In this document: positions 8,500-60,645 of the stretch, one piece after another
Numbering within the stretch: the stretch's first letter is position 1
How the letters are laid out: the number at the start of each line of letters is the position of its first letter
DNA from: Cinnamomum chago
Taxonomy: Eukaryota; Streptophyta; Magnoliopsida; Laurales; Lauraceae
Direction of reading: 5' to 3'
DNA length: 64,000 bases
Assembly: GCA_038049695.1 (NCBI GenBank)
Contig: CP142458.1
Span: 44,733,501-44,797,500 of the forward strand
The notes under the pieces: generated by a model
Databases searched by the model: none
What the model saw: only the letters and a program-made list of their open reading frames with translations
What the model was told of the DNA's origin: nothing
Made by a program: the position numbers and the translations under genes

Positions 8500-8501
<2 letters not shown>

Positions 8502-8535: not shown

Positions 8536-8537
<2 letters not shown>

Positions 8538-13350: not shown

Positions 13351-13355
13351 CATAT

Positions 13356-17491: not shown

Positions 17492-17551
17492 CTCTTTCAT
17501 GGCTGTGAGTCCTTTTTTGGAAGATCCAACTTTCCAACAAAGTGAGACTAC
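17492..17551 (-). CDS. SPOC-domain protein, penultimate exon (20 codons)
   Basis: A 60-bp exon encoding VVSLCWKVGSSKKGLTAMKE, the central helix/strand segment of the SPOC fold. It has a clean acceptor (CTTTTACAG, 17560-17552) and donor (GAG|GTGAGG, at 17491), and a 105-bp intron (17387-17491) separates it from the terminal exon. Both joints are phase 0. It is too short to be seen as an open frame and was found by matching the SPOC pattern across the gap. Its upstream partner lies 37.7 kb away. Confidence 0.88.
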
Positions 17552-18965
17552 CTGTAAAAGACATGGGTAAGGTACATGATGCTTCTAGTATGGTGAAACA
17601 TGAAATTATAAGAAATCCAATATGTGAGATTAAAAGGCAAAGGGATTATTGTTAATTTGAATCACATGATTCAAGCAATTCCGCTAAGCGTTAATCACTA
17701 TAACCAATAAGTTAATATTATTAATCTTTACCTTTTCTTTCTTTCTTTTAGCACTTGTATTTTTAAAAGGTTACTTAGTAGTTAACAAAACCTCCTAAGA
17801 ATTTTTTGCGACTTTGATAAGGTTTTAAAGATGAATAAAGAACATGCATTTAACTAAAGCATTCGACTGTACGTATGGTGCTTGTCTATATCTTCTTCTT
17901 CTTTTTATCTATTTTGGTTTTTTTTTCTTTACGAACACTTTCTTTAACTCCGAGAGATATCCTACTGTGTAAGATTGATGGTCTGAACTTTATTTTTATT
18001 TTTATATTTTGATTTAAAGATAAACAAATATTGACACTTTAAACTTATTTAACTATTTACACAGCATCTATTTCATATATAAATATATATATTAATATGT
18101 CATTATGTTCTTGATATGATTGTATGATAGATTTACTTGTTATTATATTTATACTTCTATAAATTGGAAAATGGATGGTTATGAATATTACTTTTCTCCT
18201 TTTCTTTTAATTATTTTTTTATTTTTATTAGAAAAATAAAAAATCATACGATTCGGGATACGATTCTCGATTCGAATCAATTCATGGTCATGAACGATTT
18301 GCAATACAATTTTGATTTTGAAAACTATGCCTCGAAGGAACTCGTTGTAAATCTGGGGAAAGTTGAGGGGTATTTTCAGAATTTCGGAAAAATTTCATTT
18401 TGGGTTAAGTAGGTAGATAAAAGTATTCCAAACAACCTTCGTGATTGACCCACAATCATTCCATGCTTGGAAACCATTCGTTTCGTAGTATTTCCCTTCA
18501 GTTGGGACACAATCATCTTTTCCATGAAACGTGAATTTTTTTCTTAGAGGCTCGAAATATGTCAATCATAGGCTCGTTGGAAAGTAGATTTAATTTTGAG
18601 AAACTATAATTAAAGGCCCGAAACCATCCGAGGTCTTGAAGCCCTCCGTTTTACCAAATCAATTTTTCACTTAAGTCAAACGGAATTTCCAGAAATCCTG
18701 AATCTACAAAGCCCCAATGACCCAGCACTATTTTCCTCCTCTGCATGTCCCAACTGATGAGACCTCCCTTCCATCTCTCATCCACTTCCTTCCCAAATTA
18801 CATCAAATCAAGGTTGCTACCTCAAATTTTGACATAGCCAACGGATCAAGCACCTCATTCTCCATCCCATCGTCGTTTTTGTGCAAATTTGTCCAAGGTA
18901 GCCCCCTCATTTCGCTGTTTCACCTTGGGCAGAGTAGCTACATGTGAGAGATTTGAGCTTGGGGG
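17552..18965. other. Proximal intron sequence, possible hAT end near 18.3 kb
   Basis: AT-rich sequence with T-rich runs and no gene. At about 18248-18335 there is GATTCGAATC-type palindromic sequence followed by GATTTTGAAAACTATG, which resembles the terminal style of hAT-2 in this window (GATTTTGAACCATG), so it may be the remnant end of a related hAT. No partner end was found. From 18336 to 18965 the sequence has the feel of LTR sequence but nothing firm. Confidence 0.35.
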
Positions 18966-20308
18966 TGTTAGATTATATGACGTCAATCCAGTGGATGATC
19001 CGAATAAATTGATTTTTTCATTAATTAATTAATATTTTCATGCTTTATTCATGTGATGAATGGTATTTTATTCTATGATTGTACATGACCAATACGAAGT
19101 GACATAATAGTTCATGAGATGAACCGGAGCCCATAAGTATATTAGATGTGATCCATATGTGGATGAGATCCACATACAGGAGACATAGATCACAAATCTT
19201 ATACTTAAAATGATTCATAATCAGTGATGAGATTGGGCATCTTATCTGATAAGGTAACAGCACTGTGATCACTATGAGATAGTGTGATATGTCTCGATTA
19301 TCAAAGTGTAAGACTCTGGATCATTGTGCTGGTACATTGGATGTACTGAAGGACGATGAGTAGCACCATGTGCAAATCTGTCTTTGATTAAAGGACTGCT
19401 CTCATAATTCCCAAGCAATAAGCTCTTAATCCTAAGAGATTAATGGACTCAAGTTTCTACTATACATTTACTTTGAGTCGTCAATGAATGAGGCCAATTG
19501 TAGGTCAACACCTTGAAGTCTTGGGTCGTGGGGCTGTGGGAACATATAATTCTCAAGATGGAATCTATCCCCTTTAATATCCCCTTGTGCCAATTAATAG
19601 ATTTTATCATTAGTGAGTGCGCACCCATCTCAATTAGGAGTTAATTGGATGGTACTGATGATTACTGTGATTAATTGGGTCTCAAGGATAATAAGATGTG
19701 GATCCACTTTGGTTGGGCAGATTTTATCCAATAGATCCATGAATATAATTGATAGAGGGGCCTACTTGTAGTAATTGGAAAGTTTAGGGGTCTTCTTGTA
19801 ATTATTCTTAGGACTGGAGTGCGATTGCATTTATTTAGTGGACTTATTTGCAATTAACTGTGGGTTGGAGTTCACATGAGATATGGGTCGAGATTCCTAG
19901 TTGGAGCTAGATTCTAAGGAATCCCTAGTGGTCCCCATGCTAGCCCTAATAATAGAAGGTTCCTAATCCAATTGAAACTCTTCAAGGAAAGGAGGAGTAG
20001 GACACATACTAAGAATAGAAGTGAGACTTCTAATCTTGGTCTAAGAGGAGGTGTTCTATAAACTATAAATAAGAGGTGAGGGTTAGAGATCTCTACACAA
20101 AAATTATCTCTCAAGTTCCTCTCTCTCTTCCTCCTCTCTCTCCTCTGGTTTCCTACTAGAGTGCTAGGGTTTTATTCAACTTGGAGATCCCACAATTCTC
20201 CTTTAGAAGTTCTCTAAGAGGGTCATAGCGTGGAAGAACACTAATGCAAAGGAGTTTAAAATATGTGAAAAAAGTTTTCGTAGAGATCAAGCTTTTCAAG
20301 TTTTTCGT
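18966..20308 (+). mobile_element. Long copia-type LTR, partial copy 1
   Basis: It starts TGTTAGATTATATGACG and matches the solo LTR at 57292-58983 over most of its length, including the TAGTGGTCCCCATGCTAGCC block. It breaks off near 20308, where a second copy begins in its middle. A fossil LTR; no pol domain accompanies it. Confidence 0.75.
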
Positions 20309-21871
20309 AGGTGATGGTTCATGAGATGAACCGGAGTCCACAAGTATATTAGATATGATATATGTGTGTGGATGAGATCAACATGCGGGAGACATGTGTC
20401 ACAAATCCTATACTTAATTGATTCACAACCGGTGATGAGATTGGGCATCTCATCTGATAAGGTTGCAGTATTATGATCACTATGAGATAGTGTGATTTGT
20501 CTCGATAATCAGTGTAAGACTCTGGATCATCATACTGGTAGACTCTGGATCATCATACTGGTACATTGGATGTATTGAAGGACCATGAGAAGCACCTTAT
20601 GAAACACTTTCTATACTTTAAGGTCTGCTCTTATAATTCCCTAGCAATAAGCTCTTAATCCTGAGATATTAATGAACTCAAGTTTTTATCTATTCACTTG
20701 CTTTGAGTCATCAATAAGTGAGGCCAACTGTAGGTCAACACCTCGGTGTCTTGGGTACCTGGTAGTAGGACCGTGGGAACATTCAATGGTCAAGATGGAA
20801 TCTATCCTCATTATCCCCTTGTGCCAATTAATGGATTTATCATTGGTAAGTGCGCACCCATTCCCTATTAAGAGCTAATTGGATGGTACTGATGATCACT
20901 GTGATTAATTAGGTCTCAAGGATAATAAGATGTGGATCTAAATTGGTGGGACAGGTTTTATCCAATTGATCCATGGATATGGATAGAGGGGTCTACTTGT
21001 GGTAATAAGAAAGTTTAGGGCCTTCTTTGTAATTTATTTCTCAGACTGGAGTTCAATTGCATTTATATAGTGGAGTTATTTGTAATTAACCATAGGCCTG
21101 GATTGCACATGAGATGTGGGGTCAAGGTATCCCAGTTGAAACTAGCTTTCTATGGAATCCCTAGTGGTCCCCACGCTAGCCCAAGATTAGATCATTACTA
21201 ATTCTACTTGAATTCAAAAAGGAAAGGAAATAGAAAGTTACTAATTGTTATGGACGTGAGACTTCTAATAATAATTAGAAAGAAGAAAGTTACTAAATCT
21301 TATGGAAGTGAGACTTCTATTATTAATTAGTAAGGGGAGGTTGCTTAGAGCTATACATAAGGGAGAAAGGGCTTTGGACGTCCCATGCAAAGCTTCCCAC
21401 ATTGGAATTCAAGCCCAAGACACCATTGTGCAAAAGTTGCACACGCCCATCTCTCTCCCTCTTTTAGTTTCTCTTCCGGTTTCCTTAAAGCTTCTAATTG
21501 TTTTCTTTTGGAGATCCCACCATTCTCCTTGAGGAAAGAGATATGAAACGGGTCATAGCGTGGAAGACTATTAGGTCTTGGAGATCCTAATTAGCTACTA
21601 CGAAAGAGTTCTCCATCTAGCAAGTCTTCTTCTCCAATAGAGCACAACCGAGTTCCCAAGATATAATCTACTTTCTTGTATATTGTGGATTTTTATGGTT
21701 GCTTGTTGGTTGCTATTTACTATCTTGGAGATAGTGTTTTACTGATCTTGATCATGAGTTTGAGGTTCTTGGATCCTGGATTTGGTTTGAAGCCTTCTGG
21801 ATACTTGATCCCTATGTCAAGTGGGTCAAAAGTTTTCGAAACCTATCCACGGGGCCCACCTACTTCCAACA
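20309..21871 (+). mobile_element. Long copia-type LTR, partial copy 2
   Basis: It begins at a point corresponding to 19107 of copy 1 (GTTCATGAGATGAACCGG) and runs to the right end CCTACTTCCAACA at 21871. The following ATTGGAGTCATGGCTCG resembles a degraded primer-binding region. It carries a 25-bp local duplication (ACTCTGGATCATCATACTGG, about 20518-20563). The two LTR pieces are in the same orientation with no internal region between them. Confidence 0.75.
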
Positions 21872-22329
21872 ATTGGAGTCATGGCTCGATAGCTCTCTTA
21901 CAATCAGACCGGCCTCGGTCCTCTCCTTTCGCTTCCACAACATTATTTCCTCAATAAAAAGCAAACATCCCCCTCGTGCATTTTTATCCATGCCTTGCGA
22001 TCTTGACATTTTCATCAAGCTTCAAGATCCTATGCTTCTAGTAGAGAGCATAAAGATTTGATACAGTGGGCCACCAACACCAACAAGCTCGTAAAGAGTA
22101 GGATGCGACAGAGATAAACAACACAAGACGGGGAGTGATCAACCGAAAAGCAAGGACATTTAGGCAAGATTAAAATGGAGAGAAAAACCTATAATTTGCT
22201 CTGGTCAGCAGCAAGATTTTTTGAAATGACAATGATATTGCAGGCGGGTGTGAGAGAGAGGAAATGAGTTTGAAATTTAAATAAATTTGCATTTGAATTT
22301 AAAGTAGAACTTGAAAGGTTTCAATTCGT
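21872..22329. other. Unassigned stretch after the LTR pair
   Basis: No coding domain or element end recognised. It may be leader sequence of the copia element whose LTR ends at 21871, since it follows the LTR directly, but no gag motif is visible. Confidence 0.35.
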
Positions 22330-23466
22330 TTTTTATAAGAGAAATGACCAAAAGGTTCTAGTGAAGGACAACGACATCAAAAAAGGGTGGAGGTATTTTA
22401 GCATACTTTTAATTGAAGATTATGTAGGAGACATAAGAACAAAAGAGGATACTTCATGAGCAAAGCACACTTTTTTTCGTAGAATTAGGGTAGTGGAAGT
22501 GAGGAAAGCATTAAAACAAACGAAGACAGGAAGGGCTATGGGTCTAGATGACATCTCGATTGAGGCTTTGAAATGCTTAGGAGAAGTTGGGGAGATTTTT
22601 CTAGCAAAAAAAAAAGAAGTTGGGGAGATTTGGTTAACTAGACTCTTCAATAAGATATTAATAACAAAGAAAATACACGACGAATGGAGACGTGTTGTAG
22701 TACCTATATATAAGAACAAGGGAGATATACAAAACTGTACCAACTATCGCGGTATTAAACTTATGAGTCATACGATGAAGTTATGGGAGAGAGTAATGGA
22801 GCAAAGACTTAGACAGAAGACTAAGATATCTGAAAATCAGTTCAGTTTTATGCTAGGGAGGTCAACGATGGAAGCAACCTTCTAACTTAGACAATTAATG
22901 GAAAAATATCGAGCTAAGAGGAAAAATCCGCATAAGGTCTTCATCAATCTAGAAAAATCCTACAACAGGGTACTTAGAGATTTAATTTGGTGGGTTTTAA
23001 ATAAAAGAAGCGTTCCAAGAGGTTATAATGATATTATTAAAGACATGTATGAAGGGGAAGTAACGAGTGTGAGAACTAGTTGTAGAGAGGCAAGGGAGTT
23101 CCCAGTGACAATAGGTATGCATCAGGGGTTAGCCCTAACCCCTTATCTCTTTGCACTAATTATGGATAAGTTAAATGCTCATATTCAAGAAGAGGTACCT
23201 TGGTGTATGTTATTTGTAGATGATATGATAGATGAATCAAGAGATGGTGCAAATGCAAAACTTGAGAGGTGGAGTGAGGCTTTAGAATCGAAAGGGTTTA
23301 AAATAAGTCATACAAAGGCGGAATATATAGATTGTGACTTCAGTGGGCATATAGAGAGTTGAAACTACTATGATAATTGAAGACCATGAGATACCACAAA
23401 GTGATTCTTTCCGTTACCTTGGCTTTCTAATGAGTAAGGATCAAGAGATTGATGAAGATGTCGAAC
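22330..23466 (+). pseudogene. RTE-clade LINE reverse transcriptase fragment
   Basis: Translated frames give plant RTE reverse transcriptase motifs in order: KDNDIK near 22365, KQTKTGRAMGLDDISIEALK (22520-22575), VVVPIYKNKGDIQNCTNYRG (22690-22755), ISENQFSFMLGRS (22828-22865), VFINLEKSYN (22940), GMHQGLALTPYLFAL (23115-23155) and the catalytic region MLFVDD (23208), where FADD is usual. There is a stop near 22883 and another at 23360. A GAAGTTGGGGAGATTT segment is tandemly doubled at about 22579-22632. The fragment ends abruptly at 23466 where duplication copy B begins. It is 5'-truncated and lacks its endonuclease. Confidence 0.88.
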
Positions 23467-23483
23467 ATGCTTATTTTCCAATT

Positions 23484-23659
23484 AACTCCTTTATAGAAGA
23501 ATGTTAGGCCTCACTTTAATAGGCATGCTTATTTTCTAATTAATCAATAGATTTTTGAATTGCTCACATGAGTTGCTTCCGTTTGTGCCCTAGTGGCTGG
23601 AATCCATCTTTGGATTCGATCAATCCTTCGGGAGATCGATCTACCCGATTGCTGCGTCA
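23484..23659. mobile_element. Solo LTR right part, TGATG...GCGTCA family (copy B)
   Basis: Only the right part of the LTR is present, ending GCTGCGTCA and followed by the target duplication ATATG (23660-23664). It keeps the GGAATCCATCTTTGGATTCG block shared with the solo LTR in hAT-2. The left part is lost at the junction with the RTE LINE. Confidence 0.65.
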
Positions 23660-24663
23660 ATATGCTGTATAAAATAATCTTCTGTTAAAAAGAAGTTTCC
23701 TAAATACAAATGGATAATTTTAATAAAAACCACTGGAGAGTTCATGCGCAACCATTAATTATAGTGGCCCACTATAAGTTTTAACATCAATGATTCTTAT
23801 AGGCCTGCAACTCTGACTCTCAATATTAGATTGGCTCTATGGTGCATGCAAATTTAATGCAAGGTCCTATAGCTATATCACGATTACATAGCCCTTTGTT
23901 AATTACCAATATTAGGTGGGTCCTACAAATGTCATGCTAGAGGGCTTTCATCATGATTACCAACATCAGGTGGGTCCCATACTGATTACCAAGATTGAAT
24001 TGTGTGATTACAATTATCATTCTGTCATCATTAAATGGGTCCCACTATTTGATAGCTCCCCTGTTGTTAATATGACTACCGATATCAAATGGGCCCACAA
24101 TGATTTCTCATAGATGGATTCATCAATGATGCCTGACATTAGATAACATTTTACCAAAAAAAAACCTAGTTATAAAGCCATTCGTGATAGTCACCATTAG
24201 ATATATTACAGTATTATAAACAAGGTTTGGTGGACCCACTTTAATTAAACAACATTGCTTGGATCTTATGCTTTTAACATTTAATCTTGTGATTTTTTAA
24301 CAGTGGATGGGTCCTACCATGATTGCTAATTAGTGGGTCTTGCATTTGGTCAATTGATCTCTTGTTTGGTGTATCATCTTTGTGTTTTTTTTTTATTTTA
24401 TTTCGAAACACCATAAGTGAATTTTTTATTTCGTGTATCATCTCTTGTTTGGTCTAAATCTTCTCTCCATCTCTTGTTTGGTATATCATCTTGTGAGTCT
24501 TTTTTTTTTTATAAATTTCTCAAAGGTATATCGAAATTTGTGGAAACTGCAGAACACCATAAGTGACACAATATAATAATGACACAACTTTGTTCTATGA
24601 TAATGAGATCATACAACATTTAAATTTGTTGATATTATATTATGCATTTATTCAAACACCCCC
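23660..24663. mobile_element. PIF/Harbinger-like element, right part (copy B)
   Basis: Equivalent to 7432-8440. The right terminus, inverted, reads GGGGGTGTTTGAAT and is followed by TTA. This is the better-preserved version of the terminus. Confidence 0.5.
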
Positions 24664-24762
24664 TTAGATATTAAGAAGTGAGGTAGCACGAGAAACAAGA
24701 AGACCTCATTGTATGTAGAAACTAGCAGCACTAGTCTTTTATGAAAGGGACCGGCCCCACCT

Positions 24763-24770
24763 TATATATA
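24763..24770 (+). promoter_or_regulatory. TATA-like box in a segment missing from copy A
   Basis: TATATATA lies in a roughly 93-bp segment (about 24693-24785) that is absent from the equivalent place in copy A (about 8482). It is followed by an AGGAGAAACAC stretch and a CT-rich leader, the layout of a plant promoter and 5' UTR. Whether it belongs to an LTR or another unit is not clear. Confidence 0.35.
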
Positions 24771-25012
24771 GGAGAAACACAAGACCAGCGACAGAGAAGC
24801 TCTCCAAAGAATCTCTCTCTCTCTCTCTCTCACTAGGTTCTCTCTAAGTTTCGGTCACTAGAAGGTAGTTTCTGTCCAGTTCCCCTCACAACACACGACC
24901 AAGTCCTCACTCCTAAATTAGGGTTTTTCAAATTGAAACCCTAGAAAGCTTTGACTTTTGGGAAAAGGGTAAGGAATCTAAGAATGGACTTAGGGCTTCA
25001 CATGTAGAGTTC

Positions 25013-25340
25013 ATTGTTCATCAAATTCGACAAAAAAGGCAAGTGAACAAACTCGAATTTCTATTTACTACATGATGTTATTGTCTTATTTAGATTATTC
25101 AATTATTAGAAAGCATAAATTAAGCTGTGACGTTATTACAATAGTTTGTATGTAAAATTGGTCTTAATGGTTTCGCTTGTAGAGTTCATTGTTCATCAAA
25201 TTCGACAAAAAAGGCAAGTAAACAAACTCGAATTCTATTTACTAGATGGTGTTATTGTCTTATTTAGATTATTCAATTATTAGAAACCCTAAATTAAGCC
25301 ATGGATGTTATTACCCTAGTTTGTATGTAAAATTGGTCTA
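25013..25340. repeat. Tandem duplication, two units of about 175 bp (copy B)
   Basis: Same pair of units as at 8721-9060. A third, partial occurrence follows at about 27189-27440. Confidence 0.75.
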
Positions 25341-25475
25341 AAAAAAAAAAAAAAACTAGAATTCAATTAGTATGGACTTAGTGTGAAGTAATAAAAGTGG
25401 TTTATTGTTTTTTCCACTAAGGCCGTGATCCTTCATGGGTTAAACCACATTGGCCGAACGTAATTTGGACGGAAT

Positions 25476-25804
25476 TGTTAATAACCAAAAACACCAAAAG
25501 CCCCAGCCGTTAGTGAATGGAACAATGTATTTCAAAGGGTCCTCGGGGATTCAAACTCTTTCTATTCCCCCTCATGTGCGGGGATCCACATGTGGACAAA
25601 AACACGCCAAATGACCAACGAGGAAAGAAACACGTCCCCATGGATTCAAACACATGATCCCCCAGCTCTGATACCATGTATAGAAAGTTTGACAAATTCT
25701 ATAGATATGATACAATAATTACAACTATTCTTCTAGAACTTGAGCCTTGGACTAGGTTTGTGACTTGTTGGGTAGGGCCACCTTTTTGTCACTATCTCAT
25801 TACA
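25476..25804 (-). mobile_element. Extra copia D 3' LTR in copy B
   Basis: A third copy of the D LTR, again preceded by GGAAT (25471-25475) and followed by the D polypurine tract and about 60 bp of D internal sequence before the sequence jumps at 25866. Since all three carry the same flanking five bases, the extra copy arose by duplication of the locus, not by a new insertion. Confidence 0.8.
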
Positions 25805-25866
25805 CTCCCCCTCAAACTGAGGAGGTGTTGACCGATGCATCAATTTGCTCGTCAGATCATCATGAT

Positions 25867-26327
25867 AATCTTGTGATTTTTTAACAGTAGATGGGTCCTA
25901 CCATGATTGCTAATTAGTGGGTCTTGCATTTGGTCAATTGATCTCTTGTTTGGTGTATCATCTTGTGTGTGTGTTTTTTTTTTTTTTAATTTCAAAACAC
26001 CGTAAGTGAATTTTTTATTTCGTGTATCTTCTCTTGTTTGGTCTAAATCTTCTCTCCATCTCTTGTTTGTTGTATCATCTTGTGAGTCTTTTTTTTTTTA
26101 TAAATTTCTCAAAGGTATATCGAAATTTGTGGAAATTGCAGAACACCATAAGTGACACAATATAATAATGACACTACTTTGTTCTATTGTAATGAGATCA
26201 TACAATATTTAAATTTCTTGATATTATATTATGCATTTATTCTCTCTCGGCATTCTCTTTCTCTCACTAGGTTCTCTCTAAGTTTCTGTCACTAGAAGGT
26301 AGTTTCTGTCCAGTTCCCCTCACAATA
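25867..26327. repeat. Partial re-duplication of copy B
   Basis: This repeats the sequence equivalent to 24284-24650 (ATCTTGTGATTTTTTAACAG onward), then skips to the CTCTCTCGGCATTCTC block and the CAGTTCCCCTCACAA motif, where a hAT fragment begins. Confidence 0.7.
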
Positions 26328-27188
26328 TTTTGACTATTTTCCATATGATCAAGTACAAGAAGAAGAACAGTCTTCAGTTTCGAGGTCCTACTCATATGAT
26401 GACTATGGTGAAACACAATATGGTAGATATCCACCTGGACCAACTCCACCTCCACCAAGTTCCTATGATGTGGGTGCAGCTGCCTTCTTTGGATTTGTGG
26501 ATCCCAATGCTCTTCAATATCAAATTCAATATGATGCCAATAGAAATGCTAACACTGATATGGATGAGGATAATCATAGCCCCTTGAATCTTGGTAGACA
26601 TTCCTTTTGGTGGTGATTAAGGTATTCCTATTTCCTTCACTAACTCTCTATTCTCTTTGTCATTTCTAATTTGGTGTTGAATGTTGATTGTTGATCACTT
26701 CATAGTTCATTCACTTGATTGAATTTGAACCTTGAACGTTGAAGTATTGATATTTGATTGTTCAATGTTCACTAATGAGTAATGACTAATGAGTAATGAC
26801 CTAACTCTTAAGTCCTCTTAATTCTTATGCCTTTATTTCATGTTCTAGTTTTATTTTTTATTTTTTATGAGCTTTCCATTACTTTTTAAGTTAGCATGAC
26901 TAAGAAACATGAATACATGTCAAAAAACTAATCATTACGATTATTTTCTATTTATACAGCGATATAGGACCTCATATATTGCGGGCACCGTTACGCCCCC
27001 TTTTCTTACTTACTGTTGCAAAAGAACCACATTTTCTTTCATTTTACATTTTTTTGGATTTTCTGGAATTTTTTCAGATTTTTTTGGAGATTTTTTCAAA
27101 TCGCACCGCTACGCCGCTACGTATCGCCCGCTTCGTAGCGGTTTGGCGGTGGGCCACTACGCCCGCCGCTACTGCTATTTTCATCCAT
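26328..27188 (+). pseudogene. hAT transposase C-terminal tail and 3' end (third hAT family)
   Basis: The frame from 26328 to the TGA at 26617 encodes a Tyr/Gln/Pro-rich tail (YPPGPTPPPPSSYD, LQYQIQYDANRNAN, DEDNHSPLNLGRHSFWW). Plant DUF659-type hAT transposases end in just such tails with a closing RRHSxW motif, as hAT-2 here does (EPRRHSTWN). It is followed by about 570 bp of non-coding sequence ending in a GC-rich subterminal region with inverted CGCTACG/CGTAGCG arms (27110-27175). The 5' two thirds of the element are missing, and it replaces about 200 bp of the surrounding duplicated sequence. It was not found elsewhere in the window. Confidence 0.65.
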
Positions 27189-27574
27189 GATTTAGATTAT
27201 TCAATTATTAGAAAGCATAAATTAAGCCATGATGTTATTACACTAGTTTCTATGTAAAATTGGTCTTAATGGTTTCGCTGGTAGAGTTCATTGTTCATCA
27301 AATTCAACAATAAAGGCAAGTAAACAAACTCGAATTTCTATTTACTAGATGGTGTTATTGTCTTATTTAGATTATTCAATTATTAGAAACCTTAAATTTA
27401 GCCAAGGATGTTATTACCCTAGTTTGTATGTAAAATTGGTCTAAAAAAAAAAAAAACTAGAATTCAATTGGTATGGACTTAGTGTGAAGTAAAAGTGGTT
27501 TACAGTTTTTTTCCACTAAGGCCGTGATCCTTCATGGGTTAGACCACATTGGCCGAATGTAAGTTGGACGGAAT

Positions 27575-27907
27575 TGTTAATAACCAAAAACACCAAAAGC
27601 TCGAGATGTTAGTGAAAGGAACAATGTATATCAAAGGGTCCTCGGGGATTCAAACTCTTTATATTCCCCCTCATGTGCGGGGATCCACATGTGGACAAAA
27701 ACACACCAAATGAGCAACGAGGAAAGAAACACGTCCCCACGGATTCAAACACAAGACCCCCCAGCTCTGATACCATGGATAGAAAGTTTGACAAATTCTA
27801 TAGATATGATACAATAATTACAACTATTCTTCTAGAACTTGAGCCTTGGACTAGGTTTGTGACTTGTTGGGAAGGGCCACTTTTTTGTCACTATCTATCT
27901 CGTTACA
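27575..27907 (-). mobile_element. 3' LTR of copia D
   Basis: 333-bp LTR, TGTAACGAG...TTATTAACA on the minus strand, next to the polypurine tract at 27908-27916. Confidence 0.85.
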
Positions 27908-39841: not shown

Positions 39842-39846
39842 AAATG

Positions 39847-41674: not shown

Positions 41675-41704
41675 TGTTAATAACCAGAAACACCAAAAGC
41701 TCGA

Positions 41705-42707: not shown

Positions 42708-42712
42708 CTCGA

Positions 42713-42895: not shown

Positions 42896-43269
42896 GGAAT
42901 TTGGGGCCAATAAATCCATACCACTTGGGGATTTGAGAATTTAAGGTAATTCATCCATATACAAACTAGGGTTTAGTATACCCTGATGATTATGATTAAA
43001 TTGAATATTTTCGATGTCTAAAAATTAGGGTTTTACCTTGTACCAAGAGATCCCAACCATTAAAACCCTAAAAGAAATTGGGGATCATACAAAAAGAAGA
43101 TAATTACCAATGGGTGAAGGTGGACCGCACCTGGCCGTGCGGCAATGGTGGAGATCCCACCATGGCCAAACCCTATTTGGCCTTTGTCAAACAAGGTTCA
43201 GCCATGGTTTCTTCGTATGAAGTAATTTTTATTAAGTTATAGGGGTTTTAATCTCTTTGATGTTATTGT
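42896..43269. other. Pre-insertion host sequence of D and hAT-2
   Basis: Together with 27.2-27.57 kb and 49.79-50.09 kb this forms the sequence into which D and hAT-2 inserted. No gene recognised. It contains AGGGTTT-type motifs and a GGCCGTGCGGCAATGG stretch but nothing assignable. Confidence 0.4.
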
Positions 43270-43810
43270 CATGGTTCAAAATCTCAGCCGATACCGGTTC
43301 ATATCGATATGAACCGGTATTGGTCCTTACAGGGACGCTATTTTGCCGGGATACCAGTCTCGGTATCGCAGGGCAAAATATCGCAAAAATATCAGTAATT
43401 ACCGGCCGAGATGGTCCACATATCGGTTTGATCGAGCTGAGATGGAGTACAGGTCAAAAACCCTAGTTTTTTTTACTTTTTCCCTATTCCCCCATCTTCT
43501 TCTCCTCTCCCCTCATCTCCTTAGAGCAACCATATCTCCAAAGCTCATTCTCTTGCATGTTTCCAAATTCCAACACTATTTCTTGAAGAAATCATTTTAT
43601 TTGGTAAGACAAAATCAACTTAACTCCCTTATGTTACTATTATGTGTTTTTTATTTTTTATTTTTAGATAGAGCATAGGAATGAATGAAAAGATAATTGG
43701 GCTTGTTACTTGTGTTGTGTTCTTCACTTAGAAGTAAGATCTACACACTTTCATGCTATAGATCTGCTCATATATATATGATTTTGGGTGTAGAAATTTT
43801 TTTTTTTTTT

Positions 43811-45470: not shown

Positions 45471-45628
45471 GTATTACATGAATTTCTTATTGTGCGTGAG
45501 ATAGATCTGGCATGGAGCCACGGTGAAGCAGCCGGAAGCAAAATAAAGTAAAATGTAATTATTGTGGACGGGGTGCTCAATGGGGGGATTACCCGATTGA
45601 AACAACATTTGGCATATGTAACAAGAAC

Positions 45629-45742
45629 AAGTGGCGAAGTGTCATACAGTGCCACCAAATGCAAGTGGCGAAGTGTCATGCGAAGTGTCATACAGTGCCA
45701 CCAAATGCAAGTGGCGAAGTGTCATACAGTGCCACCAAATGC
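45629..45742 (+). repeat. Tandem duplication inside the BED exon of hAT-2
   Basis: A 34-bp unit (GTGGCGAAGTGTCATACAGT...CCAAATGC) occurs at 45629-45662 and 45709-45742, with a rearranged partial copy between them (45663-45708). It follows directly on the BED motif and repeats the WRSVIQCHQM-like coding segment. Confidence 0.85.
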
Positions 45743-48375
45743 AAGAGCTGAAATGCAGGAGCTCTTTAATTCATCTTCAAAAAAAAAAAAAAAAAAAGTT
45801 GTATAAGAAAGAAGAAGAACTAAGGAACTTGATGCATGCAGAGAAGAAGTATTTGGTTCTAAAGAGGAGGAATTAGTTTCCTCCGATGATGACGGTGAGG
45901 ACCCGGAAATGAGGAGGGCTAGGAGAGAAAGTGTTAGGCCACTTCCGGAGGAGGAAGAGAGGAGAAGAATGCAATATGAAGCAGCAGCTAGAAGTCACCA
46001 ATATGAGCAGGGTGGGTCACCAGGACCGAGGGGAACGGGTTTGCGTTAGGCATTTAGTCAAAAACAACCCCGTCAAGATCCAGACATTGAGGAGGCTGAA
46101 AGACCTCCTACACATGCACCTCGTAGGCTGGATGTGGTGGGGCCAACTGACCCATTTGCTTATAGAAAACCAACATCAAAGTAGCCCGGCATCATGAAAG
46201 CACTAAAGGGCAAGTTTGGTAAAGCAAGAGAACATCTAGTGAGAGCTACTGGGAAGTTTTTTTTTGGATGGAGGCATTCCACTCAACAAGGCATCTTCTC
46301 CTTATTTCACCACCATGTTAGATGCAGCAGCAGTACATGGTACGAGTATAAAGAGTAAGGACACCCACCCCTTATGAGATTAGGCATGTGTGTGTTGAGA
46401 AAGAGTGTGAGGAGTTGCAGGCTTGGGTGCAAACTTTCAAATGGGCATGGAGGGAAAGAGGTTGCACACTAATGTGCGATGGGTGGACGGTCATCACACA
46501 TCTCTTGAATTTTCTAGTCTACTCGTGTATGGGCACAATGTTTATCAAATCAGTTGATGCAACTGATTACATCCAAGATGCAAAATATATTAATAGATTA
46601 TTGAATGAGGTGATTGAAGAAATTGTGCAGATTGTGTAGTCAGGTTGTTACCGACAATGCTGCAAACATGAAGGCTTCAAGAATGATGCTTGTGAAACAA
46701 AGGCCAGGGATTTTCTGGTCTCCATGTGCAACACATTGCCTGGATTTAATGCTCGAAGATATTGCAAAAGGAAAAGTCATGCTGCAAGTGATTGATAAGA
46801 TAAAGAAGATCACCAATTTTTTTATCAGTCGTATAGACTCATTTCCATGATAAAAACGTATACAAACAACCATGAACTACTGCGGCCTGGCATCACTAGA
46901 TTTGCCACCCACTTCATTGCCATCGAAAGTGTTTACAAGTATAAAGAAGGACTTCTCCAATTGATAAAATCACAGGAGTTCATGAATTCAAAATGGGGAA
47001 TGAGGCCAAGTCCCATTACAAAAGAAGTATGTAAAGTAATTGAGTGCAACAAATTTTGGTCTCATGTGAAGGGTGTTTTGAATGTTTTTGATCCCCTAAT
47101 AAAGGTTCTTCGATTAGTTGATGGCAATGATAAGCCAACAATGGGCTTCTTACATGAGGCCATGGAGAGATCAAAGTCGGCTATTCAAGCAGATTGTAAA
47201 TATTACGAAAAGCTTTGGAAGATCATCGACGATTGATGGGGGCGACAATTGAAACATGATTTACAAACTGCTGCTAAGTGAAGGCTATTTTCTTTAATAC
47301 TTGAATTGTTGTATTCAATTCTCCTCACTATATTAATTTATCATTGACTACAATTCATTGGTTTTTCAGGATACTTCTTTAATCCACAATTTATGGATGG
47401 ACACATATCTGATGAAATCTGTTTGAGACTAAAAAATGTAATTGAAAGACTGACAGGGAGTACAGATGAATCAATTTGGGCTACTAATCATGTAGGCTAA
47501 TTGAGGGAAAAAGTATATAACATTGTAATTTCTCCAATTTATTTTTCTACGTTAATGTCTTCATATTGACATATACAATGTACATGCTGGGAGCTTTGGA
47601 ACGACGATTGCGCGGAGAGCTATCACACAGACCAATCTTGGTATTGATTGTACTGTAATCTCTATATTATTCAAGGACTTATTATTATTTTATTGACTCT
47701 AATATCATTTCTGTTTCTATTTTCAGCTGAATGGTGGTAAAATTATGGAGAGTGCGCTCTTGCACTAAGGACAATTGCTATTAAAGTCCTTAGTCAAACT
47801 ACATCGTCTTCGAATTGTGAAAGAAACTGGAGCACCTTTTCATTTATCACACAAGACTAAGAAACAGATTAACAATGCAAAAGCTAAATAAATTGGTATA
47901 CATCCACTACAACCTCAAGCTCCGGAGTCGAAATAAAGAGAGAAGACAGTTTGAGGATCAACGGGATTATTTTTGTCCAATTAATTTGGACTATATCTTT
48001 TCAGAAGAGTATACTGTGTTAAGTGAATGGCCGGAGGAGCAAGAAGAACCGGTGTTACACCAACACCCAGCGTTTGAGGAGTTAATTGAGGACTTGATTG
48101 GGGATAGGTCATAGGGCTGAGACAATGAGGGCCTTGGAAAAAGTAGAAGAAATAAACTTGACAGTGCAACAGGGGCGCACACCTATACAAGTGAGCCAAG
48201 CGGAAAGGAAGTGGATGAGGAGAGTGAGTCGAGTATTTCTACTTCTTCATCATCAGCAGGAATTCCACTTGACTCTCCCGGGGATGGTGGTCATTGTGGA
48301 GATGATGATCCTACACTTATGAGACAGTTGAGCATTTTCCTTGTGCTACTGATTTAGATCCTCGCCGTGGCTATG

Positions 48376-48764
48376 TGATGCAATACGGAAGGCCCTGGGC
48401 CCACACGATGGACCTAGCCATCCAACCCAATCCATTGGGTTCAACCCACATGCCCAATTGGCTGAGAAGCTACTGTGGATACTAATTTTATCTTAAGTCT
48501 TAATTAGGAGTTGTTCCTTGTTTTATTGTTTTATTAGGATTAGTAACTTTCTAATTTAGAGTTCTTATTACATTATATATAGAGGAGCCTCTCATTGTAA
48601 TAGACATGCTTATATCAATTAACCAAGAATTTCTCTGAGATTATCGTGAGTTATGGGTTGTTCCCTAATTTTGTTTATGCCCTAGTCGCTGGAATCCATC
48701 TTTGGATTCGATCAATCCTTCGGGAGATTGATCTATTATTCGATCGTGGATCTTGGCTACGTCA
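48376..48764. mobile_element. 389-bp solo LTR in hAT-2
   Basis: It starts TGATGCAATACGG and ends GGCTACGTCA, with the target duplication CTATG on both sides (48371-48375 and 48765-48769). It contains TATATATAGAGGAGCC (a promoter-like box, near 48574) and the GGAATCCATCTTTGGATTCG block shared with 23601-23620. No internal coding region: a fossil solo LTR. Confidence 0.85.
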
Positions 48765-49794
48765 CTATGTCAGACATGTTGGACAAACCGAGGCAAGGAG
48801 TTGTAGTGGCGCCGCTGGGCAAGGAGTGGGGGAAGGTACTCATGGTCATCATGGGAGTTACGTTGGCCAACAAGCTGCCATGTATGGACAGCATGGAGGT
48901 TATTCATATGACCCTAATTGGGTACCCCCTTCACCGACACCGTTACTTTTTATCGAACAGATATTAATTGAGCAAAGGAGGCTTGTCCCACCACCATATC
49001 CTGAACGACCTTTTTTATGCCCTTCATACCTATTTCAAGCCATTTGAGTACAACCAGCCATCGCAATCTATAAGGGATCAAGATAGTTCATCATCTTATC
49101 AAGAGCAACCTGAATATGGTCATGGGTATGGTAGTGCAGCACAACAGTATGGAGCGTATCTTTTTAACCATTACCAAAGAAATGATGATGATGATGATGA
49201 TGATGATATCGAGCCTAGGCGACACTCCACTTGGAATTAGGCTGTCATACTCATCAATCTCTCTCTACTCTCTAGTCCCCCCTAATTTCAGGTAAACCAT
49301 GAACCTTTTGATGCCCAAGTGCTTTATGATTTATCTATCTCACTATCATGTTTCAAATTTTAATATGTTATCTTCATCGTCTTGAATTTCACAACTTCTT
49401 TGATGATTAAGATAGTATTAATTGATAATTGATATGTTATCTTTATTTTCTTATATTTTACACTCATAAATTGATCATGAGCCAAAATAATTGTTGCATT
49501 ATATGAAATACCGGAGAAGACAGTGAACTGCAACACGGACAGGAATCAAAACTTAAGGTGACCAATATTTTGACTTATTGTTGTTATGGAAAAAAAAAAA
49601 AAAAACATTGTTTTCCAGCATTTTCTAATATTCTGGATATTTTCGATTTTTTTGCGAATTTTATTGGATTAAAAAAAAATCACACGGTGACGACAGCGAC
49701 GGACCGATAACCGCGACCGATACCAATATCATATCGGTTTTTCGGCCCAGCCGATACCGCGACCGAAACTACGATTTTGAACCATGGTTATTGT

Positions 49795-50093
49795 AATGCC
49801 TAGGGTTTCTAATTTTCAATATTGGATCTTGCTTTCATGTGTTCCTTTGCTTAAAACTAAGGTTTCTGATTCATGTGATTCTGATAAGAGTTAATTGGAA
49901 TTAGAATTTCTATATGTTGAATGTGCATGTGTGTGATGGAGTGGGGAATGCACTTGCTCATGGTGAAGAAACCCTAGATACAAGTTTTAGTTTTATGCGA
50001 GGAAAGCGGCTTTGGAGTGTTGGCCGTGGAACCCATGGGGACCCACCATGTTGGATGATCCTATTTAGATGAATTCCTAGGGTCCTTTGACCC
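49795..50093. other. Intron sequence between hAT-2 and a MITE
   Basis: No gene or element recognised. It includes GTTGGCCGTGGAACCCATGG near 50019. Confidence 0.4.
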
Positions 50094-50096
50094 TAA

Positions 50097-50388
50097 GGGC
50101 CTATTGCTTGGAAGAATTGTGAGAATTCATGTCTAGGAGAATTACAAGAATAACAAATGCTGCCCCTCAAAATATAACTCCAAATGCTCAACCCACCTCT
50201 AGCAATTGGAATGCTGGAATTCAAGGACTTCACAAAGCTAAAAAGTGCATTTTCATGTGGTTTGGAATTCTGAATTCTTACAACAAACAGAGCATTTTGG
50301 AATGCCCAAGGGGCAAGATGTCACATCATGTCATTAATCCCCAACAAGCCCAATTCCTTGTCAGAAATGACTCTAACCAAATAGGCCC
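50097..50388. mobile_element. Tourist-like (PIF/Harbinger) MITE, 292 bp
   Basis: Left end GGGCCTATTGCTTGG and right end, inverted, GGGCCTATTTGGTTAG match the classic Tourist terminus. TAA flanks both sides (50094-50096 and 50389-50391), the PIF/Harbinger three-base target duplication. A 90-residue open frame crossing it is incidental. Confidence 0.85.
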
Positions 50389-50479
50389 TAAGGTATCATG
50401 AGCAGTTGGAATTCTAATTCCTAGACATATAGCACCATTTGGGCTACATTAATTTGGGGACTTTGACATTAAATTAGAG

Positions 50480-50525
50480 GCCGACCCCGACATAGTTGGG
50501 ACAAGGCATTGATGGTGATGATGAC
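50480..50525 (+). mobile_element. 46-bp RTE LINE insertion with 15-bp target duplication
   Basis: The insert reads GCCGACCCCGACATAGTTGG, then GACAAGGCATTGATGG and a TGATGATGAC tail, the RTE 3' end seen at 5531 and 60600. GACATTAAATTAGAG flanks it on both sides (50465-50479 and 50526-50540), a perfect target duplication. It is an extremely 5'-truncated retrotransposition event. Confidence 0.92.
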
Positions 50526-50540
50526 GACATTAAATTAGAG

Positions 50541-51755
50541 CTTTTGGATCTTACCCAATTGAAATAATGAATATAGACCAGTAATGGGCGGTGTTTGTAT
50601 GGCTTGACATCCACCTATGGACCACCATGAAGCATGCCTAGGAATATGGTAACCTATGAGTACCACATCGTGGACTCTCTAAACATCAACTACCTTCAGA
50701 AGCGCCAATTAATTGGTCTAAACCTAATTGGACGTCCTTGAGATCGTTCAAATTGGGTTTAGGGGAAACATGCGGTGTTAGGGATTCCATGGTATCATGA
50801 GGTTGAGTTAGTGTAGAACTTGCATGTGGAAGGCGGTCCTAGACATAAGTTTGGCATGATCTGCAAAATGGTGTTAATGCTTATCGTAGTTTATCTAACT
50901 AATCTCATGCCTCAATGTACTCCTTACATGTATCCTGTTATGATGGCATATTTCGCTAGGTCATGTGAATTGTGTAGCTCAAGTATGTTATATTTTGAAA
51001 CAAAGAATTTTGATAACTTCGGAGGAATTGACATGCATACGTATAATTCCTTGTAGATTACTATTGGCTGGTACTTATATGTACTTTTTTGCTGAAAGTC
51101 AAGGTGACAACACTAGGCTGTTTAAACCTAGCATAGTGAAACACTACTATGAAAGGGCCGTATTTTCAGAAACGATGTGCAAATTAGTTAATTCCTTTGG
51201 AACGGACCAACGGTCGCTTTGGTACCAAAACTTTGTATAAGTTCTGATGGCCTTAACTCTTGTATCTGGGTACTAAACTCTATTCTCGCCACGATTAAAT
51301 TGGGGCGCAATAATATCGTGGCAAAACTCTATTCCTCATCGATCTCCATGACTACTTAGGCAATTACTTTTTAGATTTGCATTTGATGAATTCTCCTTAA
51401 GTAACTCTATCCTTCATGAATTTCCTTTGTCCACAAATGTTTGAAAACTCCGTAATCTTACCTGTCTTCTATTCTGTTTCGAACTTGCATGGAATGTGAA
51501 ATTTTGGATTGCTTACTCGTTGAGGTTCTAATAAAACCTCACATAATAGAATTGGCACTTGTAGGTGAAAAAATAGATATTGAATCTCAGGACGTTATTG
51601 TGAGTATAAGAAAAGAGTGCAGATGACATAGTCTAGAGACACTAGGGAACGCTCCATAATGATTATCTAATTTAATTCGTTCATAATTGTTGCCAGACAA
51701 TTGACATTGATTAAAGAAATAGAATTATTAAACTTGTGTTCCGTTATTATGTCTT
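50541..51755. other. Intron sequence, nothing recognised
   Basis: About 1.2 kb without a recognisable coding domain, LTR end or inverted terminus. The two open frames of 78 and 91 codons have no motif and look incidental. Confidence 0.4.
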
Positions 51756-51879
51756 TTGATAAGATTGATACTTGTAAAGTTTTCACTGCAAAAGTTTTGG
51801 ATTGGACCTAATTTCATATTTGCAGTAAAAAAATTAAATTCGCGGCTCGAAAGATGGACTTCATTGGAAATAAGCATTT

Positions 51880-52834
51880 CGGGTCGTGACCATGGGAGAA
51901 GCAAAGAAGAGGAAGAAAGTGACTTGGAGCTCTCCTCCGCCAAGTTTTTTAAACATTAATGTGGACGGAGCAACTCATGGTAAACCAGGGCCGGCTAGTA
52001 TTGGCTATGTTCTTAGAAATCACAAAGGAGAGGTGTTGTACATGTTTTCAAAAAATGTGGGGGTTAATAACTTGGAACGGATAGGATCACAAGTGGGACC
52101 ACCCAAGATAGGAATATAAAAAATATTCCTTTTATCTCCCTAATTAGTTGGTAGTAGGTTTCTAATTTTATCGAAAGGGTTGTAATTAGGATTAGGTTTT
52201 CTTAGCCCCTAAATGTGTTCTCCTATTTATATGCAATGTAGGAGATGGAAATCTAAGACTTGATTAATAGAAATATAATTGGTTTATTCCATTGAGGTGC
52301 ATCCTTGTGTCAATATCTCTGCGGAGATCTCACAGTGTATACAGACACATGCTTGGGCACTTCCATGGAAGCACTAACCCTAGGGCCTGGATTAGTTAAA
52401 GACTCCAATGATGAAGAAGTTTTGGCCATTTTAGAAGCTCTTCACATCAACTGTTACTCTTTCCGGTTTAGCTTCATTGTAGAAAGTGATTCTTTCAATG
52501 TCGTATCTTGGGCAAAAGCTTTCAAAGTCCCTTGAAAACTGCAGTTCTATTTTAACAAGATTAAACATCTATCATTGGAGTCTTGTGTTTTTCTTTTCTT
52601 TTTTTTTTCCCAGCATTTTATTAGGTCCGCTAATGGGATGACAGACACATTAGCTAAGCAAGGGGTTGATCGCGTATGCAATTTAAGTGCAGTCATTAGA
52701 ATGCTGGGCCTCAAGGGTGATGCCTGGTACATATCTCTTACACCAGCACTACTTGGTTGTTATCATTCGATGCACTTCCTTGTATTAACTTTTCATTTTA
52801 ATATATATGATCGTTACCTCCTTCCAAAAAAAAA
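51880..52834 (+). pseudogene. L1-type LINE RNase H remnant with poly(A) end
   Basis: The frame from 51886 encodes FLNINVDGATHGKPGPASIG, then VLRNHKGEVLYMFSKNVGV, the start of an RNase H (RVT_3) domain as found in plant L1 elements. The domain resumes at about 52400 with DSNDEEVLAILEALHINCYS and FIVESDSFNVVSWAKAF, and ends with HFIRSANGMTDTLAKQGVDR (52612-52670). The sequence closes with TACCTCCTTCC and a run of nine A (52826-52834), a typical L1 3' end. About 330 bp (roughly 52065-52400) interrupts the domain. It is 5'-truncated. A degraded host RNase-H-like gene is the alternative, but the poly(A) favours L1. Confidence 0.7.
52065..52400. mobile_element. Unidentified insertion in the L1 RNase H domain
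   Basis: Sequence foreign to RNase H separates the two halves of the domain. It contains CTCCTATTTATATGCAATG followed by a purine-rich run and TTAATAGAAATATA, the look of a small LTR promoter/terminator. Exact ends and target duplication were not resolved. Confidence 0.4.
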
Positions 52835-53700
52835 TCTCTGGATGGCCATTCCTAATGGGCTTGAAACCAAGGAGGTTTTGGCTTCCATAGGCATCCAAAT
52901 GGACACGTTAATTGCATCTTTTACAACCTCATTATGCAAAGCTCAACCAATCTGCACGCTGCCTGCCCTTTACCTCTCTGATTTAGGATTCAGTCGCCTC
53001 CAAATTTTGCATAAATCAGCAAGATCCTGAAACCAATGTAACCATTGTTTAAGCTGTCTGCTGTGAGATGGTTTATAGACATCTGTAGACACTGTAAGAA
53101 AGGAGACAACCCTTGCCAAGCTGTGTTTTTCTTCTGTAGTTTGGAATGTTTGGAATTAACATAATTAATGCATTTTCCAGAATGTTTGTAGGCCTTGGGA
53201 TCCAGTTCTGAGAGAGATTCTGCACCAGATCAGAACCAGAGCCATGTATCTGTGTCTTGAATCTCTTGATGCTTCCTCTCCTATCAATGCTCTTTGGGAC
53301 CACCCCCCTCCTCCTACCAACGTCACAAAGTTCCTGGGCTTGGCTAACCAAGAGTGGAATTCATTCATATCTGTCCAGGATGGTCTTTCAGTGGGGTTTT
53401 CTTCAAAATTGATTCTATCATGGAACCGTGGGCAAGATCAGTCATGGAAGAAGATATTTTTGTTGCTGCTTTCACCATCTCCTAAGGTGCTAAATTCATC
53501 TCCAAGATGATCCTCTCTATTCATTGTAAAATTCTCATATTCCCCTTGCCAATCCAAACCTTTCTCCATGGCATAAGAGGTTCTAAGCTAGAAAGGTAGC
53601 CGCACTCATCAACCAGGACCAAGCCTCTTTCAGGTGCATCAGTTCAGATGCTGGTTTCATCCATTCCAGAGCGGTTGCACAGATTAGGAACATTAACCCT
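52835..53700. other. Sequence between two L1 poly(A) ends, unassigned
   Basis: Open frames of 90-150 codons cross this stretch on both strands, but none shows a recognisable motif. It may be body sequence of the L1 whose poly(A) is at 53933. Confidence 0.35.
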
Positions 53701-53946
53701 CTCTGAGCTTCCTTCTCAGTTTTGCATGGCCCACGCAGTGAGCAGTGCTTTTTTCTTTTTGGGTTTTGCGTGTACTGGGCTGTGGGTTGGCTCGCCCTTG
53801 TACCGGGTTGTTCCCATTTTTGTTTCCTTCTTTCCTGGGCTTCTGTTTCTTTGCGCTGAGCGCACAATGCCAATAAACATGGTTCCGTGCTTCATAATGT
53901 TTTGTCTCTATAATATAACAAAATTACCTTCCAAAAAAAAAAAAAA
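53701..53946 (+). mobile_element. L1-like LINE 3' end with poly(A)
   Basis: A G/T-rich stretch (CTGTGGGTTGGCTCGCCCTT) followed by a T-rich end, AAATTACCTTCC and 14 A residues (53933-53946). The end CCTTCC plus poly(A) mirrors the L1 end at 52820-52834. The extent to the left is not known, and no target duplication was found. Confidence 0.5.
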
Positions 53947-53975
53947 CTATTATTGGTCTCAAGTTGCTAAACAAT

Positions 53976-54196
53976 ACACCCAAAATCCCTAGGCATTAGA
54001 GGTGCGACAGATTAACTACTTAAACACCACCGGGACTCGAAGCACGAGCCCGAACAAGACGCCACATGTGGCCTTTTTTTTTGTCATCTACGGATATGAA
54101 CCAGGAACATGTTGGCTTGGACACCATCTCAACTTGGTAACCAACACACCCAAAATGCCTATCCTTTAGAGGTGAGGCAAATTAACTAATTAAAAA
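53976..54196. repeat. Pair of 50-bp direct repeats
   Basis: CACCCAAAATCCCTAGGCAT...GATTAACTACTTAA (about 53978-54023) recurs as CACCCAAAATGCCTATCCTT...AATTAACTAATTAA (about 54148-54193), about 170 bp apart, with a GAACATGTTGGCTTGG stretch between. Confidence 0.6.
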
Positions 54197-55270
54197 TTTC
54201 TTCATTATTTGCAGAATATCTGTTAGTATATGTTGTCTTTTTCACTGCTTTTATCAGACTGCCACAATATTCAGGGCTTAAATTACTTCAACTTGCTCTC
54301 TCCCAAGAAGTGCCCTATTTTAATAATTCTCTCTCATTTCCCATTTCACTGTCTTTAAAATGAACTTATTGCCTTTAAACAAATCTATTCTCCTTTACTT
54401 TTCTTTCTTTGCATTGGGGTTCTTGCTTGATCATCAAGACTAATAAGTTTCATTGGATAATTTTACTAATATAGTCAAGTCAAGTCAAGTCAAGTTAAAC
54501 ATCCCATCAAAAGCACTTTTTACCAAAATTCCCTCCATCTTTTCCAAAAAAAGTCAAAAAACAACTACATTTACTCACTAAAAGACAAAAAAACTCCATT
54601 TCCCCAGACAAAAAGTCAAAAATATCCATCCCAAACAACTAAAAACAAAATACCATCATAACTCACTTATATTTTATTCATTCTTTTCATTTCACTTCAC
54701 TCCACTTTATTTTAAAAGTAAATTACCAAACGGTCCTTTAAGAGTCCTTTAAGAGACAAACTTCTAAAAATGAAGGGAAGTGAAGACATGGCATAGAAAA
54801 TGGACTCCTATCCACAAGTAATCTTCAGGAAATATTTAAAAAAAGAAATAAAACCATAAGGTAAAATTACACCCCAATAACATATTTTCAGGACTAAATA
54901 TCAAAAAGTCATGGATTTATCAAGCACATTAATAGATATGTAGGGAAGTTTGCACGAAAAGCCATCATGAAAAAAGAATACCTCATGGACACTATGAAGG
55001 AAAGAAGAGTGCAATGGCAGATATTAAAATACTCGTACATTTTTCACAATGCGACTACTAGCAAATACTAAAATACTCAATACATTTTTCACAATGCAAC
55101 TAATAGCAAAGTCCAGTAATTTTCCCCGTTATTTCTATCCTAGGATATTTTCATATTAAATTTCTAGTATCAGGAACTTTTCCAGCTGATTACATTTCCC
55201 ACAAATAACTACAGTATCCATGATTTTTATGGTTTCCAGTTGACAGATTAAATGATGGGAATTAAAAAAA
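54197..55270. other. Probable original intron sequence next to the upstream exon
   Basis: AT-rich, no coding motif. It contains a (TCAAG)n microsatellite at 54474-54495 and a doubled GCAAATACTAAAATACTC / ATATTAAAATACTCG segment (55018-55090) with TTTTTCACAATGC repeated. It ends at the donor of the exon at 55277. Confidence 0.45.
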
Positions 55271-55276
55271 TCTTAC

Positions 55277-55428
55277 CATCAAGGCACGGTTGCGAGATCG
55301 AGGAAGCTCTTGGATATACTTTTCAAAGGCCTCCAGTTTTACTTTTCCTTTAACTTCTACAAGTTTAGACCAATTTACCTGCAAGGCCTTCTCACCACTG
55401 CACAAAAATTTCGCTGTTGACATGTCGC
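55277..55428 (-). CDS. SPOC-domain protein, upstream exon (N-terminal half of SPOC)
   Basis: On the minus strand this encodes DMSTAKFLCSGEKALQVNWS, then KLVEVKGKVKLEAFEKYIQE and LPRSRNRALM, the first half of a SPOC domain. The donor is ATG|GTAAGA (55276-55271). Joined to the exon at 17551 it yields RALM-VVSLCWKVG, exactly the expected continuity of a SPOC domain, in phase 0. The acceptor is less certain: an AG at 55430-55429 gives 152 bp, but the preceding tract is AT-rich rather than pyrimidine-rich. No further upstream exon was recognised to 64000. Confidence 0.87.
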
Positions 55429-60640: not shown

Positions 60641-60645
60641 GATTC

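Follow-up and report, generated by a model that had tools for sequence, protein, structure and literature searches.

In Chloranthales and magnoliids, long introns are described as prevalent, with a contribution from long terminal repeat (LTR) elements, and introns longer than 40 kb are treated as a class in Chloranthus spicatus, in a source that also quotes a substitution rate of 1.51 × 10−9 per site and year (PMC8626473). For gymnosperms, the literature reports numerous introns longer than 20 kb (PMC9364684), longest introns ranging from 36 kb to 1.4 Mb across eight genomes (PMC7642918) and, in a preprint, an intron of 1.49 Mb in Wollemia (PMC10473749). Long conifer introns are described as repeat-rich in Picea, and two conifer papers state that very long introns can impede gene identification (PMC7642918, PMC10473749). 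Genes of Arabidopsis and rice that contain heterochromatic introns are reported to need IBM2, the loss of which leads to premature polyadenylation within them (PMC7145194). The Arabidopsis BORDER proteins BDR1, BDR2 and BDR3, each with a SPOC domain and a TFIIS central domain, are reported to promote 3′ pausing of RNA polymerase II (Pol II) (PMC6761125). Here we analyzed a 64,000-bp stretch of the Cinnamomum chago genome (assembly GCA_038049695.1, contig CP142458.1, positions 44,733,501 to 44,797,500; hereafter the window), in which the minus strand carries the two halves of one SPOC domain at a distance of 37.7 kb.

We conclude that, very probably, this locus represents the 3′ portion of a single plant nuclear gene encoding a SPOC protein, with BORDER/DIDO/PHF3 as its most likely type, and that an ordinary spliceosomal intron, swollen to 37.7 kb, divides the SPOC domain. 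The gene model, in window coordinates and in order of transcription, is as follows.

55277..55428, minus strand: internal exon, SPOC profile positions 25-71 (PF07744, 29.0 bits alone); 5′ edge uncertain, 55428 or 55397
17552..55276, minus strand: inferred 37,725-bp phase-0 intron, GTAAGA...TTTTACAG, with GT-AG ends and the profile junction at 71/72
17492..17551, minus strand: 60-bp exon, SPOC from profile position 72; its omission lowers the SPOC score
17387..17491, minus strand: 105-bp intron, in frame, without stops, exitron-like; its retention lowers the SPOC score
15845..17386, minus strand: terminal coding exon of 513 codons plus stop, comprising the end of SPOC and a long C-terminal region

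Against the Pfam profile PF07744, the exon at 55428-55277 covers positions 25-71 and the downstream exons cover 72-153, so that no profile position is lost or doubled at the join. The separate pieces score 29.0 and 25.5 bits, whereas the joined peptide reaches 68.4 bits (E = 8.5e-19, cutoff 25, profile positions 26-153 of 153), more than their sum. At the junction itself, the upstream exon ends in ...SRNRALM and the 60-bp exon opens with VVSLCWKVG. Leaving out the 60-bp exon reduced the score from 68.4 to 45.5 bits, and retaining the 105-bp intron reduced it to 57.0 bits. No second SPOC half was found elsewhere in the window; a tblastn search with the joined peptide returned these exons and two further matches (E = 2.3 and 5.1), which we took as chance. 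The interval has features of a spliceosomal intron, namely GT...AG ends, a preserved frame and flanking exons that are adjacent in the SPOC profile. The profile junction, the matching phase, the lower scores on skipping the exon or retaining the short intron, and the lack of another second half in the window together strongly support a single predicted gene with a 37.7-kb intron.

The initial annotation had placed minus-strand exons at 55428-55277 and 17551-17492, separated in phase 0 by 37,725 bp with GT-AG ends, and we re-derived the same coordinates and strand. Its proposal that these two exons complete one SPOC domain is sound insofar as a single domain is split; completing it takes three exons, most of the second half lying in the third (17386-15845), and profile positions 1-24 are absent from the model. 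The open frame of 513 codons attributed to the terminal exon was recovered at 17386-15845, and the probability of such a frame in random sequence with matching base composition is about 1.5e-12. The three codon positions of this exon differ in base composition, as they do in coding DNA; scanned alone, the exon gave no Pfam match. Over the 1,752 coding bases of the model there is neither a stop nor a frameshift. The 105-bp intron at 17387-17491, being a multiple of three and free of stops, would insert 35 residues within SPOC if retained, and is in this respect exitron-like.

Splice sites were scored with a crude consensus of our own (a pyrimidine score for acceptors) rather than a trained model, and were ranked among all AGs or GTs on the minus strand of the window. 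Scores at least as high as that of the acceptor at 17551 were obtained for 58 of 3,688 AGs, and for 25 of 3,688 in the case of the acceptor at 17386. Both donors, including that at 55276, were equalled or exceeded by 129 of 3,158 GTs. By this measure, the predicted splice motifs at 55276 and 17551 are good.

Repeats of any kind occupy 23,497 of the 37,725 bp of the interval (62%), a figure that includes three components counted solely for having a second copy in the window, namely the segment X′ (its part at 23484-27903), repeat family Y and a tandem array. Identified elements sum by hand to about 14.4 kb (38%). The interval is rich in mobile elements, as the initial annotation had proposed, and its description as nearly entirely retroelement and transposon sequence was too strong. 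The presence of promoters and terminators on both strands was not demonstrated: a scan of 30000-40500 gave 26 promoter-like sites against a shuffle mean of 26.7 and 16 terminator-like sites against a shuffle mean of 7.0 (standard deviation 2.8), and the scan, being of bacterial type and not made for plant signals, is uninformative about the latter. Among the 103 open reading frames (ORFs) of at least 85 amino acids in the whole window, 40 were scanned for domains (38 in the interval, 2 outside); nine passed the Pfam cutoff, seven with retroelement domains and two with DUF659. The features recognized in the interval are the following.

18966..21872, unstranded: repeat family Y, two partial copies; another copy at 57292-58984
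22460..23468, plus strand: fragment of a long interspersed nuclear element (LINE) reverse transcriptase; RVT_1 with E = 9.9e-14 for 22886-23359, below cutoff for 22460-22882
27904..30465, minus strand: 3′ part of an older copia element, M (integrase, reverse transcriptase and RNase H side); SH3_retrovirus and RVT_2; inverted homology to P
30466..39841, plus strand: P, a copia LTR retrotransposon with both LTRs and a nested hAT element, antisense to the gene; identified by LTRs, primer-binding site (PBS), polypurine tract (PPT), target-site duplication (TSD) and pol Pfam domains
31965..35578, plus strand: hAT DNA transposon inside P; 8-bp TSD GATCCATC at 31957-31964 and 35579-35586
39842..41106, minus strand: 5′ part of M (gag/protease side), in the sense of the gene and cut by P
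43738..45508: tandem array, four degenerate copies of a unit of about 230-315 bp, from repeat search and BLAST
46352..46728: remnant with DUF659

The two LTRs of P (approximately 30466-30800 and 39508-39841) differ at 15 of 334 positions and are 95.5% identical. Downstream of the 5′ LTR lies a PBS and upstream of the 3′ LTR a PPT, and the element is flanked by a 5-bp TSD, AAATG, at 30461-30465 and 39842-39846. Pol_BBD, SH3 and RVT_2 domains occur in this order above their cutoffs, with a gag match of 26.5 bits just under its cutoff of 27. P therefore shows the LTR pair, PBS, PPT, TSD and copia-order gag-pol expected of a Ty1/copia element, with the exception that its 5′ LTR starts with CG, not TG. 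The insertion within P has an 8-bp TSD, short terminal inverted repeats (TIRs) and a hAT-type transposase, as hAT elements do. DUF659, which we take to be a domain of hAT-type transposases, was matched with E = 6.5e-47, together with a hAT dimerisation match below cutoff. The TIRs agree at 9 of 11 bases, a number reached in none of 200 shuffles (maximum 8). Homology between P and M stops at the left edge of the hAT element and restarts at its right edge with an overlap of 8 bases. The TSDs of P and of the hAT element show their insertion, and the intron grew stepwise, by the older copia element M, then the copia element P and then the hAT element inside P.

Outside this nest, 8,548 bp beside the first exon (46729-55276) contain no recognized repeat and no domain above cutoff in the scanned ORFs, and 2,821 bp around 41-43.7 kb were not assigned to any repeat. 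Tandem Repeats Finder returned 24 rows, none of which is the array at 43.7-45.5 kb. Rfam at gathering thresholds and a tRNA scan gave no match. At 57292-60643 as at 18966-23468, family Y and a LINE are found in one and the same order (K 0.13-0.146), and the two LINE pieces start and stop at different places; these two pairs may reflect an older segmental duplication or independent insertions.

A segment of the intron is duplicated shortly past the 3′ end of the gene, which the earlier account of the locus had missed.

23484..31003, unstranded: X′, the intron segment with second copy X; it spans the M/P junction
7311..15530, unstranded: X, the copy of X′, with M sequence, the M/P junction, the P 5′ LTR, the PBS and about 200 bp of leader
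10471..13349, unstranded: TG...CA insertion in X only, 2,879 bp, TSD CATAT, resembling a solo LTR

X comes to within about 315 bp of the stop codon and measures about 5.3 kb without its own insertion, which is the shared length; X′ is now 7.5 kb. In five chosen blocks totalling 4,612 bases, with long-homopolymer or rearranged stretches omitted, 127 of 4,568 aligned positions differ (2.8%; 1.9%-4.1% by block), and the BLAST pieces, gaps included, are 90-96% identical. Because X and X′ carry an identical junction between M and the P 5′ LTR, they cannot be two independent insertions of one family, an origin that we ruled out on this ground; the pair reflects a duplication at the DNA level that took place after P had inserted. 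Its source was probably the intron copy X′, since P is complete there. A plain tandem duplication of 15.5 kb would be a less simple account, as the window holds no second copy of the exons. The edges of the duplication fall within elements, in the P leader at 31003/15530 and in a LINE near 23361/4951. X′ alone shows further internal duplications, and about 0.86 kb at 26326-27189, between duplicated pieces, is present in X′ and absent from X.

With its second copy beyond the 3′ end of the gene, the repeat leaves the terminal exons between direct repeats of about 5.3 kb shared length. Recombination between X and X′ would remove the end of the gene, and the possible deletion of these exons is a prediction that can be checked in populations. 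The stretch at 14988-15530 comprises the copied copia 5′ LTR (14988-15326), the PBS and the leader, and the LTR ends 519 bp from the stop codon. By its orientation, this copied LTR is directed antisense into the last exon.

The divergences suggest that the copies of Y and of the LINE at 57-60 kb are the oldest (0.13-0.15), followed by P (K 0.047) and then by the X duplication (about 0.028). At a grass substitution rate of 1.3 × 10−8, P would be about 2 million years old. At 1.51 × 10−9 per site and year (PMC8626473) it would be about 15 million years old, and from such ages only the order is usable.

We then compared the intact reading frame with the number of disabling changes that its 1,752 bases should show under neutrality if they had changed as fast as the repeats. 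For the time since the insertion of P, the expectation is 1.5 stops and 3.5 frameshifts, against none observed (P = 0.006, or 0.04 when 1-bp indels are ignored), values that depend on a frameshift rate from 11 indels and on repeats that may mutate faster than exons. This comparison speaks for, without proving, selection that maintained the frame at a time when the intron had already become very large. The claim that the gene still works thereby gains indirect support, which is weaker when the count is restricted to later time, as described below.

Several observations weigh against our reading of the locus. Counted only since the X duplication, the intact frame has a P of 0.05, or 0.16 when 1-bp indels are ignored, which is weak. 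The acceptor required by the 5′ edge at 55428 is poor, with 1,912 of 3,688 AGs equal or better; the alternative edge at 55397 has a better acceptor (851 of 3,688 equal or better), but lowers the SPOC score to 65.5 from 68.4 bits. Upstream in the window (55429-64000), neither SPOC profile positions 1-24 nor a TFIIS central domain was found, in a search that could overlook short exons; the TFIIS central domain may sit in such exons or past base 64000. A W-x-G motif search of the same interval listed nine places; judging by eye, we accepted none of them as the beginning of SPOC in a matching phase. Of the 13 minus-strand upstream ORFs listed with at least 60 amino acids, 10 were scanned for domain families (the other three overlie a LINE). 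Neither TFIIS nor SPOC was detected in them, and the two hits obtained, both to other families, stayed below cutoff (E = 0.09 and 0.1).

As the TFIIS central domain is not seen, the BORDER label is based on SPOC alone, and we provisionally assign the gene to the BORDER-type (BDR) elongation factors with SPOC and TFIIS central domains. Plant SPOC/TFIIS proteins contain acidic motifs like DDDLPEFDF. A structure of the FPA SPOC domain was reportedly solved in a 2016 paper (PMC4981400). A phmmer search of the PDB by sequence (E up to 10) returned six sequences, none of them a SPOC protein; these matches, which comprised fluorinases (best E = 0.019) as well as one designed protein, were dismissed as chance. 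Provided that the FPA structure is among the entries searched, as we infer, this result leans against a close ortholog of FPA (plant SPEN), pointing away from it without amounting to a full test.

The weak acceptor of the first exon, the failure to find an upstream exon within 8.6 kb and the values since the X duplication would all suit a recently dying copy, in which the exons are intact, splicing of the intron has become inefficient, poly(A) sites in the elements terminate the transcripts and a paralogue does the work. Such a copy is hard to reconcile with 1,752 coding bases free of disabling changes, with the good splice sites of the giant intron and with the low neutral probabilities since P inserted, and we regard it as unlikely. 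More improbable still is an assembly artefact, in which haplotypes were joined or a repeat was misplaced, X and X′ are allelic, and the arrangement or distance of the exons is wrong. X and X′ do look like two versions of one segment with the same M/P junction, as an artefact would predict; yet the window contains no N, X lies outside the intron and is joined to the 3′ flank of the gene, and the two segments differ by 2.8% in aligned blocks, by a 2.9-kb insertion and by internal rearrangements. Were X misplaced, the distance between the exons would be unchanged, and were X′ misplaced, the interval would still measure about 30 kb.

Physical distance is the only point in favour of two separate loci, or of trans-splicing, in place of one cis-spliced transcript. 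With the same strand, the right order, matching phase, GT-AG ends and profile continuity all opposed to it, we give this explanation hardly any credence. A bolder proposal is that the intron and its copied piece form a regulatory unit, in which the gene for a Pol II pausing/elongation factor has to be transcribed across 37.7 kb of silenced elements and the copy of the intronic LTR past the 3′ end of the gene fires antisense into the last exon. We consider this proposal very unlikely. If it were true, the abundance of the factor would be governed by the kind of activity that it exerts itself (3′ pausing, premature termination) together with anti-silencing factors, so that gene structure would create a feedback.

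For the single gene with a giant intron, which we favour, Pol II would transcribe from the upstream 5′ part through all elements of the interval, and the giant intron would be removed at 55276/17552. The element-rich intron DNA would be kept silent, probably via IBM2/ASI1-type machinery acting against premature polyadenylation. The locus offers a sequence-level record of an intron becoming giant, with insertions in known order and the coding exons intact around them. It also makes a good test case for gene finders, since 37.7 kb separate the halves of a single conserved domain. The statements of the two conifer papers on gene identification agree in general with the remark of the initial annotation that software would very likely split the locus in two.

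In summary, the predicted gene resembles BDR1-3 of Arabidopsis in carrying SPOC in a plant protein (PMC6761125), and differs from them in that the part visible in the window is limited to SPOC and a C-terminal region and the TFIIS central domain, expected upstream, was not found. As for the IBM2-handled introns of rice and Arabidopsis, intronic elements would be transcribed across (PMC7145194); heterochromatic chromatin and IBM2 dependence are documented in those systems, whereas the present intron is known from its sequence alone. Like the long introns of gymnosperms, it exceeds 20 kb and is linked to repeats (PMC9364684, PMC7642918, PMC10473749), and 37.7 kb is small beside gymnosperm maxima of up to 1.4-1.5 Mb. 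It shares with the long introns of Chloranthus spicatus and magnoliids the contribution of LTR elements and a comparable order of size (PMC8626473). The predicted giant intron is a clear but ordinary case of a kind known from large plant genomes. Its points of interest, and its difference from the Chloranthus and magnoliid introns, are the resolved nest with its ordered build-up and the copy of the intron interior in the 3′ flank of the gene.

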